From: Fidelibacterota bacterium TCS56
GTDB taxonomy: Bacteria > Fidelibacterota > Marinisomatia > Marinisomatales > TCS56
Assembly (NCBI GenBank): GCA_001577055.1
Contig: LSCG01000007.1
Location: forward strand, 1-37,827
DNA: 37,827 nucleotides
Direction of reading: 5' to 3'
Shown here in pieces: positions 83 to 23,166 of this stretch; position 1 is the stretch's first letter; every line of letters starts with the position of its first letter. The translations under genes and the position numbers were made by a program. The notes beneath the pieces were generated by a model, which was given only the letters and a program-made list of their open reading frames with translations, was not told the origin of the DNA and did no database searches.

Positions 83-88
83 ATGCAA

Positions 89-150
89 ACCCCGCAGGGG
101 TGATATTATTATAGCACAATCACCACCATACAAGATAACCCCGAAGGGGT
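89..150. repeat. Two same-orientation copies of a mini-hairpin, ACCCCGCAGGGGTGA (89-103) and ACCCCGAAGGGGTGA (138-152); REP-like
   Basis: ACCCC-GNA-GGGGT palindromes 49 bp apart in intergenic DNA. Confidence 0.75.
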
Positions 151-349: not shown

Positions 350-1720
350 GTGAATATAAATCCCTATATGTTTCGTGAATATGACATCCGCGGCAATGTG
401 GCTGAGGATTTCCCTCCCGATGTGGTGGTGCTGCTGGGGCAGGGTTTCGGTACTTTTATCGCCAATCAGGGCGGCCGGGAGATTGCCCTTTCCGGTGATG
501 TGCGCCTGACAACCCCGGCCCTGATGGAACAATTCAAACGTGGCGTGCTGTCCACGGGCGTGGACGTCATCGACCTGGGATTGCTGCCCACACCGGTGAA
601 TTATTTCTCCATGTTTCACCTGGATGTGGCCGGCGCCTGCCAGATAACCGGCAGTCACAATCCCCCGGAATATAACGGATTTAAACTGAGCTACAAGCAG
701 GGCGCGGTTTACGGCCAGCAGATACAGGATATCCGTCAAATAATCGCGGATAACAATTTTGCGGTGGGTACCGGTAACGAAATTCGCCACGAAATTAAAG
801 CCGACTATGAGCAGATGATCCGTGAAAAAATTAAGCTGGAACGTCCGGTGAAGGTGGTCATGGATTGCGGCAACGCCGCCGCCTGTATCAATGCACCCAC
901 CATTTTTCGCGAACTGGGCGCCGATCTCACCGAATTATTTTGCGATATCGATGGCAGCTTTCCCAATCACCACCCCGATCCCACCGTGGAAGCCAACCTG
1001 ACTGAGCTGATCAAATTGATGAAGACCGGGGAATACGATGTGGGCCTGGCTTTCGATGGTGATGCCGATCGTGTCGGTGTGGTTGATGAAACCGGTGAGA
1101 TAATCTGGGCTGATCAATTGATGGCGCTGTTCCTGCCGGAGATTGTGGAACCGGGCGACGAGATTTTATTTGATGTGAAATGCTCCCAGGCCCTGGAAGA
1201 AATGATCGTCAAATACGGCGGTAAGCCGGTGATGTGGAAAACCGGCCATTCCCTGATTAAAGTAAAAATGCGCGAACTGAACTGCAAATTCGGCGGTGAG
1301 ATGAGCGGTCATATTTTCTTTGCCGATGATTATTACGGTTACGATGACGCTACTTATGTAGCCGCCCGGCTGATTCAGCTGCTCTCCCGCAGCGATAAGA
1401 AACTATCCGAACTGGCGGCGGAGATACCGAAGTACTACTCCACGCCGGAAATGCGATTGATGTGTGAATCGGACGAGGAGAAATTCCGGATTGCCCAAGA
1501 AGCAGCCGAATATTTCAGCGCCAATTACGATGTGATCGACGTGGATGGTGTGCGAATCAAATTCGGCGACGGCTGGGGACTGGTGCGCTCCTCCAACACC
1601 CAGCCGGTAATCGTCTGCCGCTTCGAAGCCGCCACTCAGGAACGAATGGAAGAGATTAAAAATTTAGTGCTCACCAAACTCCAGTCCATTGGAAAGATCG
1701 AGCTGGATGGCGGCCACTGA
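350..1720 (+). CDS. Phosphomannomutase/phosphoglucomutase (GTG start)
   Basis: FREYDIRG N-terminus, TGSHNPPEYNGFK active-site serine loop, DGDADRVGVVD metal loop, C-terminal RSSNTQP. Confidence 0.95.
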   Translation: MNINPYMFREYDIRGNVAEDFPPDVVVLLGQGFGTFIANQGGREIALSGDVRLTTPALMEQFKRGVLSTGVDVIDLGLLPTPVNYFSMFHLDVAGACQITGSHNPPEYNGFKLSYKQGAVYGQQIQDIRQIIADNNFAVGTGNEIRHEIKADYEQMIREKIKLERPVKVVMDCGNAAACINAPTIFRELGADLTELFCDIDGSFPNHHPDPTVEANLTELIKLMKTGEYDVGLAFDGDADRVGVVDETGEIIWADQLMALFLPEIVEPGDEILFDVKCSQALEEMIVKYGGKPVMWKTGHSLIKVKMRELNCKFGGEMSGHIFFADDYYGYDDATYVAARLIQLLSRSDKKLSELAAEIPKYYSTPEMRLMCESDEEKFRIAQEAAEYFSANYDVIDVDGVRIKFGDGWGLVRSSNTQPVIVCRFEAATQERMEEIKNLVLTKLQSIGKIELDGGH

Positions 1721-20370: not shown

Positions 20371-20607
20371 ATGAGCAGAGTATGCGACGTGACCGGTAAG
20401 AAACCGCTGTATGGCAATAACGTCAGCCACGCTCACAATAAATCCCGCCGCCGGTTTAATATCAATCTGCAGAAGAAACGCTTCTGGCTGCCGGATGAAA
20501 AACGTTTTGTAACCCTGACCGTTTCCACTCAGGGTATGCGTCTGATTGACAAAAAAGGCATCCGTCGGGTCGTCAACGAAATGCGGGCGGCCGGGAAGAA
20601 AATTTAA
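20371..20607 (+). CDS. rpmB: 50S ribosomal protein L28
   Basis: [41 protein letters not shown]. Confidence 0.97.
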
Positions 20608-20629
20608 CTGACAGCAATATTTAAGTGAT

Positions 20630-20658
20630 GAAAAATCCGCCGATTGGCGGATTTTTTA
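20630..20658 (+). terminator. Rho-independent terminator of rpmB
   Basis: AAAAATCCGCC-GATT-GGCGGATTTTTT. Confidence 0.9.
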
Positions 20659-20666
20659 TTAGAATC

Positions 20667-20699
20667 AGGGATGCCATCCCGCGAAGGGATGGCATCCCT
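20667..20699. repeat. REP-like double palindrome, copy A: AGGGATGCCATCCC-GCGAA-GGGATGGCATCCCT
   Basis: Perfect 14-bp arms; each arm is also internally palindromic (GGGATG-C-CATCCC). Confidence 0.85.
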
Positions 20700-20717
20700 T
20701 TTATATACAATAGGTTA

Positions 20718-20735
20718 AAACCATTGAAATGGTTT
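20718..20735. repeat. Palindrome AAACCATT-GA-AATGGTTT
   Basis: Perfect 8-bp arms, 2-nt centre. Confidence 0.7.
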
Positions 20736-20792
20736 CGCTAGGGTTTGAGTTGTTCTCTATCTGTTTATGATAATCGTTAGTATTGGTAATAG

Positions 20793-20812
20793 CCCACGAT
20801 TTTAATCGTGGG
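20793..20812. repeat. Palindrome CCCACGATT-TT-AATCGTGGG
   Basis: Perfect 9-bp arms, 2-nt centre. Confidence 0.75.
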
Positions 20813-20836
20813 TCATGAATGCGTTAACAAATGGTG

Positions 20837-20852
20837 AACCGTTTTAACGGTT
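20837..20852. repeat. Palindrome AACCGTT-TT-AACGGTT
   Basis: Perfect 7-bp arms, 2-nt centre. Confidence 0.65.
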
Positions 20853-20906
20853 TATTTTTCCGGAAATTTGGAGGTTACCGATGATTGTATTCCTTAGTCA
20901 GGAAAG

Positions 20907-20936
20907 CGTAGGGTCGTTTCGCGAAACGACCCTACG
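20907..20936. repeat. 30-bp perfect uninterrupted palindrome CGTAGGGTCGTTTCGCGAAACGACCCTACG
   Basis: The second 15 nt are the exact reverse complement of the first 15 nt. Confidence 0.9.
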
Positions 20937-21082
20937 AATGAATTGCACGCAACGGACACTTATTCCGCTGCTAAATTTTGGTTATTCTAATAATTCATAT
21001 TTTGCACATACACTACACCAATTATGGTCCACCAATGAATTAATAATTGCACAATCTGCTAATAATTATTAAACTTCTATGA

Positions 21083-21128
21083 AACAGCCGGAAGCAATAG
21101 TGTTCTTTGCTATTGTTCACCGGCTGTT
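21083..21128. repeat. Hairpin AACAGCCGG ... CCGGCTGTT with nested CAATAG/CTATTG stem
   Basis: 9-bp outer arms (21083-21091, 21120-21128) plus an inner 6-bp stem. Confidence 0.75.
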
Positions 21129-21135
21129 GTGCTAA

Positions 21136-21414
21136 CATAACAAATATCTTGGCAGGGCAAGAAAATATTCCCATTTTCGCGCCCATTGGTTCTGGGATCG
21201 CTATCGATGGAAGAAATGGTCCAGACGCGTAAAGAATTATGTAATGAATGAAAATAAGGAGGAATATATATTTGAGTGGGATTATTATGAAGGTGCAAAT
21301 CCTGATTGGGTTACGCCAACCGAGTCGGAAGCTGAGGACAGAATTGACGAGGTCTCAAATTGGCGATTTGTTTTTTTCAACTCCAATCCAGATGGAAATA
21401 CTATAGAACCTTAA
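21136..21414 (+). pseudogene. Open frame with a protein-like sequence but no start codon until 21244 (56-aa ORF 21244-21414); possibly an N-terminally truncated gene
   Basis: Frame reads HNKYLGRARKYSHFRAHWFWDRYRWKKWSRRVKNYVMNENKEEYIFEWDYYEGANPDWVTPTESEAEDRIDEVSNWRFVFFNSNPDGNTIEP*; not in the ORF track because the ATG-initiated part is under 60 aa. Confidence 0.45.
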
Positions 21415-21426
21415 GCCGGAGTTTAT

Positions 21427-21849
21427 ATGAATTTTCCTAGATTTGTTTGGTTATCATTATTGATATTGATTGGTTGCAGTATCAAGGAAGAAACCACGAT
21501 TACCTGCATGGTAAATAACCAATCAATAACTGACGTAACGGTCGAATACAAGGAGACAACGGCAGATTCTGCCACAGTAGTTGGTGTTAATTCTGGCTAT
21601 GTATTCAAAGTGTTTCGTAACAGTTTTGAAGGCAAATTGTCCGAACCGGATAAGGATGAATTTCGCGAATTGGGTGATTACCTGAAAATTTTTGCAGATG
21701 ACTCATTAATCATTGATGAAACGCCGTTAAACAAGGACAATTGGGTGTTAACCTATTCAGGCCAAGGCGCTTTTATGAGCGAGGTCACTTATTCATTCCA
21801 TTATGTATTTTATGTGACCGATTCATTGATCACTGCGAATATGCCTTAG
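21427..21849 (+). CDS. Small putative lipoprotein of unknown family
   Basis: Signal peptide plus lipobox LILIGC; GGAG upstream of ATG; 140-aa intact ORF. Confidence 0.7.
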   Translation: MNFPRFVWLSLLILIGCSIKEETTITCMVNNQSITDVTVEYKETTADSATVVGVNSGYVFKVFRNSFEGKLSEPDKDEFRELGDYLKIFADDSLIIDETPLNKDNWVLTYSGQGAFMSEVTYSFHYVFYVTDSLITANMP

Positions 21850-21872
21850 GAAAAGGTATTGATTATGGTGCG

Positions 21873-21907
21873 AAGGGATGCTGTCCCTCGCAGGGATTGC
21901 ATCCCTT
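21873..21907. repeat. REP-like double palindrome, diverged copy B: AGGGATGCTGTCCCT-CGC-AGGGATTGCATCCCT
   Basis: 15-nt arms pairing at 13/15 positions; same AGGGATGC...GCATCCCT ends as copy A. Confidence 0.8.
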
Positions 21908-21914
21908 TAATAAG

Positions 21915-21943
21915 AAAAGGCCTGCCAACCGGCAGGCCTTTTT
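21915..21943. terminator. Bidirectional Rho-independent terminator
   Basis: AAAAGGCCTGCC-AACC-GGCAGGCCTTTTT between convergent lipoprotein gene and ftsZ. Confidence 0.85.
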
Positions 21944-21963: not shown

Positions 21964-23166
21964 TTATTTATGTTGCTGCCGCACGAAGGCCGGAATCTCC
22001 AGGTCGCCGCCATCGAATAATGACGGTTTGCTGTCATCAAAGACAAACTTGGTTTTGTCTTTCGCCGCCGTTGGAATCGCTGGAGATTTGGACGATTGTT
22101 TCTGGCTGATTAATGGCATGTCCAGGGACTCGGCATAAGCCGGGGTGCGGGTCGGAAGGCGCTCAGCTTCTTCCTTGGCGGTAGAGCGGGTTTCCTCAAC
22201 GAAATCCGGTTGGGAAAATCCCGTGGCAATAACAGTAACGCGTATCTCTTCCGCCATGGCCGGGTCGATGACAGCGCCGAAAATGATATTGGCATCCTGG
22301 CCGGCTTCTTCGAAAATGATCGAGGTGGCTTCGTCAACTTCCAGCAGGGTCAGGTCCGGGCCACCGGTGATATTAACCAGCACACCCCGGGCGCCACTGA
22401 TCTGGGCGCTGTCCAGCAGGGGACTTGAGATAGCCTGCTGCGCGGCCAGCACCGCCCGTTCTTCGCCGCTGGCGATGCCCGTTCCCATGATGGCCTCACC
22501 CATATTTTTCATAATCGTTTCCACATCGGCAAAATCCAGATTGATTAATCCATGAACATTGATCAGATCGGAGATTCCTTTAACCGCCTGATGCAATGTG
22601 GAATCGGCGGTTTTGAAGGCTTCCATTACCGTCGTGGATTTATCGACAATGGACATCAATTTCTGATTGGGAATCACAATCGTGGTATCGCAGGCTTTAC
22701 GCAGCTCGGTGATACCGCCGCTGGCACGATTCATCCGTTTGGGACCCTCAAAATTAAAGGGCAAGGTGACGATACCTACCGTCAGAATTCCTTTCTCCCG
22801 GGCCAGTTGGGCCACCATGGGCGCCGCTCCGGTGCCGGTGCCCCCGCCCATGCCGGCGGTAATAAATACCATGTCGATTTCTTCCAGCAGCGCTTCCACC
22901 GCTTCCTTGTCGGTCTCGATCGCTTCCCGTCCGACTTCCGCTTGGGCGCCGGCTCCCAGACCTTTGGTCAGGCTTTTCCCAATCTGGATTTTGTGCGATG
23001 CGGCGTTATTTTCCAAATCCTGAGCATCGGTATTGATGGCGATGAAATCCACTCCGTGCATACCGGCCTGGATCATCCGATTGATGGCGTTGCCACCAGC
23101 GCCCCCGACACCGATGACCTTCAACTTTGCTTTCTGCTCTGCTAAGTAGTCAAATTCAAACAACAT
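21964..23166 (-). CDS. ftsZ: Cell division protein FtsZ
   Basis: [24 protein letters not shown] tubulin signature, C-terminal IPAFVRQQ peptide. Confidence 0.98.

Follow-up and report, generated by a model that had tools for sequence, protein, structure and literature searches.

The convergent core genes rpmB and ftsZ of an uncultured member of Candidatus Neomarinimicrobiota are separated by a 1.25-kb block of extra DNA, which is a genome-specific insertion at a conserved junction. The block contains the stump of an accessory gene pair and several unrelated palindromic repeats, and it is probably a site of accretion between convergent core genes rather than one mobile element with REP ends. 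One of the repeats is an inverted pair of units with two hairpins each, and it matches the ends of a Y1 transposase gene that is present in low copy elsewhere in the same genome. The likely cognate repeat system thereby indicated for TnpA-Y1 subclass 1.2 was a side product of the analysis and is its most valuable result.

The window, i.e., the whole stretch of 37,827 nucleotides that was analyzed, is contig C116 of the MAG G000 (1.94 Mb, 161 contigs, 87.6% complete, contamination estimate of 0.08). The nearest relatives used for comparison belong to other genera: G001 and G002 represent two sister genera, with G002 in the same family, while G212 and G221 come from another family within the phylum. 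Copy counts of repeats were obtained by targeted searches.

A preliminary description of this DNA had proposed comparing the rpmB–ftsZ junction across relatives, and the block proved to be absent from all 21 genomes that keep rpmB beside ftsZ; the conservation in close relatives that had been named as refuting the proposal was thus not observed. The gap amounts to 1356 bp in G000 as compared to 59–229 bp in these relatives; in G002, which belongs to the same family, the two genes are 137 bp apart. In G001, ftsZ has a rearranged flank from which rpmB is absent. The block is AT-rich, with a GC content of 38.5% as compared to about 52% (about 45–57% in the surroundings). Its composition agrees with the different character ascribed to it earlier. 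The block, previously described as low in coding density, is more than non-coding DNA, as it carries an intact 140-aa gene and a 92-codon 3' end (Table 1). A search against Rfam gave no match approaching a gathering score, and a Pfam search of the small ORFs gave no match.

Table 1. Features of the rpmB–ftsZ junction, in coordinates of the window.
Feature	Position	Strand	Basis or remark
rpmB (ribosomal protein L28), left border gene	20371..20607	+	Pfam PF00830, 96.6 bits
Terminator-like hairpin of rpmB (left block edge)	20628..20659	+	inverted repeat I4
Copy A, GGATGCCATCC hairpin family	20667..20699		palindrome search, fold test
Decayed left unit of the inverted pair	20719..20762	-	covariance model R1, 22.2 bits, E 0.005; hairpin I10
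Intact two-hairpin unit	20791..20852	+	82% DNA identity to C147:711-776; R1 69.5 bits
Perfect palindrome CGTAGGGTCGTTTCGCGAAACGACCCTACG	20907..20936		fold test; GTAG...CTAC at ends, 'double foot' type
Imperfect hairpin abutting the start of the truncated gene's homology	21083..21128		fold test
DUF6973-containing lipoprotein gene, 3' stump	21136..21414 (open to 21411)	+	92 codons; ~305 N-terminal codons missing
Intact 140-aa lipoprotein gene, lipobox LIGC	21427..21849	+	homologues downstream of DUF6973 gene elsewhere
Copy B, GGATGCCATCC hairpin family	21873..21907		palindrome search, fold test
Terminator-like hairpin of ftsZ (right block edge)	21915..21942		inverted repeat I5
ftsZ, right border gene	21964..23166	-	ORF; orthologues in 53/61 genomes searched

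By homology, the truncated frame noted previously in the block is what remains of the 3' part of a DUF6973 gene, sharing 62% identity with residues 306–399 of a 403-residue protein of G221 (E 1.6e-34) and 61% with a protein of G212. Intact homologues of the truncated gene match PF22322 (DUF6973) with 30–31 bits (cut-off 27), while the stump alone, which begins after most of the domain, gave no PF22322 match. The homology ends sharply at position 21136, beside the 46-nt hairpin. The second gene had been regarded as an orphan lipoprotein; it is indeed an intact lipoprotein gene, but no orphan, being the usual downstream neighbour of the DUF6973 gene. A homologue lies directly 3' of that gene in both G212 and G221, in the latter in tandem twice. 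The lipoprotein family occurs in 3 of the 245 genomes of the phylum, and a paralogue is present on contig C125 of G000. The stump and the downstream lipoprotein gene follow each other just as their homologues do in G212 and G221, and the genes of the block are, by homology and gene order, a decayed two-gene accessory module and not random spacer. A toxin–immunity function of the pair is speculation: both products resemble lipoproteins, and no tested function of DUF6973 was found. The lipoprotein gave no match when compared with phages and plasmids, and its single-sequence AlphaFold model was unusable (pLDDT 38). Nothing significant was found for the DUF6973 homologue in the PDB, and publications about DUF6973 or about Neomarinimicrobiota REPs yielded nothing useful.

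The edges of the block had been described as two diverged copies, A and B, of a double-palindrome REP. Strong hairpins are present at both positions. Copy A forms a perfect 14-bp stem and folds as ssDNA with -17.6 kcal/mol (z -7.5), the 16-nt arms of copy B are 88% complementary (-13.9 kcal/mol, z -6.3), and none of the shuffles folded as well as either of them. Instead of a double palindrome, however, each copy is best read as one 13–15-bp hairpin with arms that happen to be internally near-palindromic. Their reported placement was accurate, as copy A begins 8 nt past the terminator-like hairpin of rpmB and copy B stops 8 nt short of that of ftsZ. Further palindromes between A and B, also reported before, are the inverted pair at 20719–20852, CGTAGGGTCGTTTCGCGAAACGACCCTACG and the hairpin at 21083–21128.

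As anticipated, copies A and B belong to a genome-wide family. A degenerate search for the GGATGCCATCC hairpin returned seven places in G000 (A and B included), seven in G002 and two in G001, and a further copy on contig C123 of G000, cut by the contig end, brings the MAG to about eight copies. No copy was found in two genomes of another family, and the reversed-pattern control gave no matches. Stem pairing was kept via changes on both sides in 10 cells, as compared to 3.5 in shuffles. The members other than A and B are single and intergenic. One of them precedes purQ closely, in an identical location in G000, G001 and G002 (L003, L101 and L102; purQ was recognized by its N-terminal sequence), with differing loops, which suggests a function or long persistence there. 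Because this site is common to three genera, at least one position of the family was inherited and not newly inserted. Several copies lie close to other palindromes. On C62, C123 and G002:C137, GGATGCCATCC hairpins have a TAGGG/TGGGG...CCCTA palindrome no more than about 30 nt away, an arrangement that would fit landing sites common to different repeat families; the counts of the TAGGG palindrome (4, 7 and 12) were not clearly above those of the reversed-pattern control (11, 8 and 8).

Y1 matches in G000 are located on contigs C79, C29, C147, C123 and C85, and none is in the window, in agreement with the earlier statement that it holds no transposase. The expectation that a RAYT or Y1 gene would be flanked by the A/B palindrome failed for every Y1 gene whose flanks were read, namely those on C147, C123, C79 and C29 and four from the sister genera. 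The only transposase hint for this family is a half-site, GGATGGCATCC, adjoining the repeat unit on C147. Copies A and B, members of a dispersed multi-copy hairpin family with compensatory changes, may derive from another source or act as 3'-end hairpins.

The latter reading, in which A and B are 3'-end RNA or DNA hairpins (back-up terminators, transcript stabilizers or protein-binding sites) placed by a preference for convergent spacers, is compatible with accretion and is possible, if rather unlikely. Copy A scores as terminator-like and has a T-run, but rpmB and ftsZ already have their own adjoining terminator-like hairpins, and the terminator scan found three where 1.8 were expected. Stem pairing that survives changes on both sides and the copy upstream of purQ at one site in three genera would fit such a role, as would the preference of REPs for spacers between convergent or co-directional genes (PMC3733652), yet a start codon follows closely after the purQ copy.

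A single composite or non-autonomous mobile element with A and B as its ends is an improbable carrier of the gene pair into the rpmB–ftsZ spacer. Both copies lie within 8 nt of a terminator and the extra DNA is missing in relatives; the very exact bracketing of the block by A and B is not predicted by accretion. The nearest family member of B is A (5 of 33 positions differ), but A is nearer to two others (4 differences) and five others differ from B at 6 positions, so that A and B have diverged from each other about as much as each has from several other members. In addition, the other copies are single and intergenic, one of them having its site in common between three genera, a second such cassette was not found in the genome, and no examined Y1 gene is flanked by this palindrome. 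Of the insertion boundary proposed earlier, what stands is that a conserved junction has received additional DNA, whereas A and B as ends of one element are unsupported. A mis-assembly or foreign contig join is very improbable: the GC content drops sharply and the MAG is incomplete (87.6%, in 161 contigs), but the repeat families of the block occur on other contigs of the bin and in the sister genera, a lipoprotein paralogue lies on C125 of the same bin, and the contamination estimate is 0.08.

Under accretion, the AT-rich module of a DUF6973 lipoprotein gene and a small lipoprotein gene would have arrived between the terminators of rpmB and ftsZ, and its first gene would have lost about 305 leading codons. 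Several unrelated hairpin repeats surround the remnant: A, B, the GTAG/CTAC palindrome and the inverted pair of two-hairpin units. As the block shows, accessory genes and unrelated repeats can gather together in a spacer between convergent core genes. The GTAG/CTAC palindrome at 20907–20936, which has a similar counterpart at C42:3734, is like the 'double foot' REPs of TnpA-REP subclass 2.4 in having GTAG and CTAC at its two ends, but no subclass 2.4 protein was identified in G000.

The earlier suggestion of an element mobilized by a RAYT or Y1 transposase was right in that a Y1-linked non-autonomous repeat is present in the block, but this repeat is the inverted pair at 20719–20852 and not A/B. 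Its unit consists of AGCCCACGGTTTTAACCGTGGGT, a spacer of about 25 nt and AACCGTTTTAACGGTT. In 19 distinct units from three genera, 99% of the cells are paired, and double changes number 18 as compared to 4.9 in shuffles. The covariance model R1 was built from these 19 units, which include the intact window unit and not the decayed one. In the intact unit, the hairpins occupy 20793–20812 and 20837–20852; the decayed unit has kept its outer hairpin (20718–20735) and lost the AGCCCA hairpin. The pair, 134 bp in length, lies between A and B and, with one unit decayed, is probably no longer mobile; an empty site for it was not found within this species. The window sequence 20700–20860 matches contigs C147, C113, C124 and C144, and the matches on C147 flank a Y1 transposase gene. 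Including those at the gene, seven unit matches were found in G000, nine in G001 and eight in G002, which is low for a REP family and a point against the preferred explanation of the block. Dispersed units also occur as inverted pairs at loci L181, L184 and L186.

The Y1 gene on C147 (139–573, minus strand; PF01797, E 2.2e-27) lies beside atpC, and the units at 87–147 (+) and 619–682 (-) are inverted around it (L090). Its orthologues in G001 and G002 are located between atpC and aspS and are flanked by the same hairpins. As a separate observation, 292 bp at the end of C113 (C113:11629-11920, L089) are 99.3% identical to C147:614-905 (L090) next to atpC. Beyond the shared hairpin, C113 diverges from C147 and has no Y1 gene; this is either an assembly fork or a difference between strains in the presence of the transposase gene.

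The C147 protein scores above the cut-off of NF033573 (transpos_IS200) and fails the NCBIfam RAYT model REP_Tyr_transpos (24.5 bits, cut-off 80), as do its orthologues. It reads YIRNQ and not Y..NP, the NP motif after the catalytic Tyr being absent. TnpA-Y1 subclass 1.2 is defined by the signature Y---Q--HH, DH[IV]H, a length of about 148 aa and low copy number (PMC6006769). With DHVH, EYIRNQVEHH, 144 aa and a low copy number (the other Y1 matches in G000 are divergent genes), the C147 protein fits subclass 1.2, an assignment by motif, length and copy number rather than by a tree. Table 1 of the same study lists REP as 'no' for subclass 1.2, and typical IS200 end structures are described as generally missing (PMC6006769). 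In contrast, clear inverted hairpin pairs flank the gene here and at part of the loci from other phyla. Similar to IS200/IS605 (subclass 1.1), the protein exceeds the NF033573 cut-off and hairpins lie near the ends, but here one site per genome is occupied, in the same neighbourhood in three genera, and gene-less units are dispersed.

Class 2 RAYTs are the usual explanation for REPs and REPINs. REPINs and BIMEs are inverted pairs of hairpin units linked to RAYTs (PMC3116915, PMC2817692). The present system resembles REPINs and their RAYTs (TnpA-REP, class 2) in its dispersed intergenic inverted hairpin pairs, which match units inverted around a low-copy Y1 gene. Thus, a Y1/HUH domain, flanking inverted repeats and dispersed, often paired units are present, but the protein lacks RAYT-specific motifs, including the NP motif, and stays below the RAYT cut-off. 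The unit also differs from RAYT REPs in comprising two hairpins, in its AGCCCA-type foot instead of GTAG, and in its number of only 7–9 matches per genome. Around two other Y1 genes with a similar motif (L115, G002:C289, and L118, G001:C130), many alternating GACCCC-N-GGGTC and CAATCCCT-N-GGGATTA hairpins were observed, which may represent another repeat family served by a transposase of its own.

The pair at 20719–20852 would derive from the ends of the low-copy Y1 (HUH) gene beside atpC, as a non-autonomous and now decayed copy moved by the transposase of that gene. This transposase would likely cut and rejoin single strands at AGCCCA-type hairpin pairs. By analogy to IS200/IS605 and TnpA-REP, it would bind the hairpins in ssDNA, cut alongside them and rejoin the ends, and an inverted pair could thus move without the gene.

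The flanks of homologous Y1 genes were compared at 50 loci from other organisms, with the two sister genera excluded; a few of these loci do not have the Y---Q--HH signature. A CCC...GGG hairpin with an AG foot, a pattern picked after the Neomarinimicrobiota units had been seen, occurs within 250 bp of the gene at 21 of the 50 loci (on both sides at 14) and is absent within that distance at the other 29. The loci are not independent by descent, and several Acidobacteria have near-identical hairpins. Of 41 such hairpins, 36 are in inverted orientation, mostly 41–80 nt upstream and 70–92 nt downstream, as compared to 6 hairpins in 164 kb of distant flank used as control. Any hairpin in non-coding DNA was about 4-fold more frequent near Y1 genes than far away (6.25/kb vs. 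1.57/kb). On these data, the balance tips slightly towards subclass 1.2 having its own widespread repeat system in several phyla, with two-hairpin AGCCCA-type units inverted around the gene, at a distance of about 50 nt on its upstream side and about 80 nt on its downstream side, and shed as dispersing non-autonomous inverted pairs, of which the window element would be a decayed example. A transposase–repeat partnership is thereby indicated where the published table lists none (subclass 1.2, PMC6006769). If an IS200-like subclass has its own two-hairpin repeats across phyla, this would offer a testable origin for many orphan palindromes in uncultured bacteria and, possibly, a link between true insertion sequences and domesticated RAYTs, as an intermediate form. 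At two Y1 genes that are more distant (L170 and L172), nearly the same hairpin, CCCGGATGTTYACATCCGGG, lies exactly 159 nt downstream.
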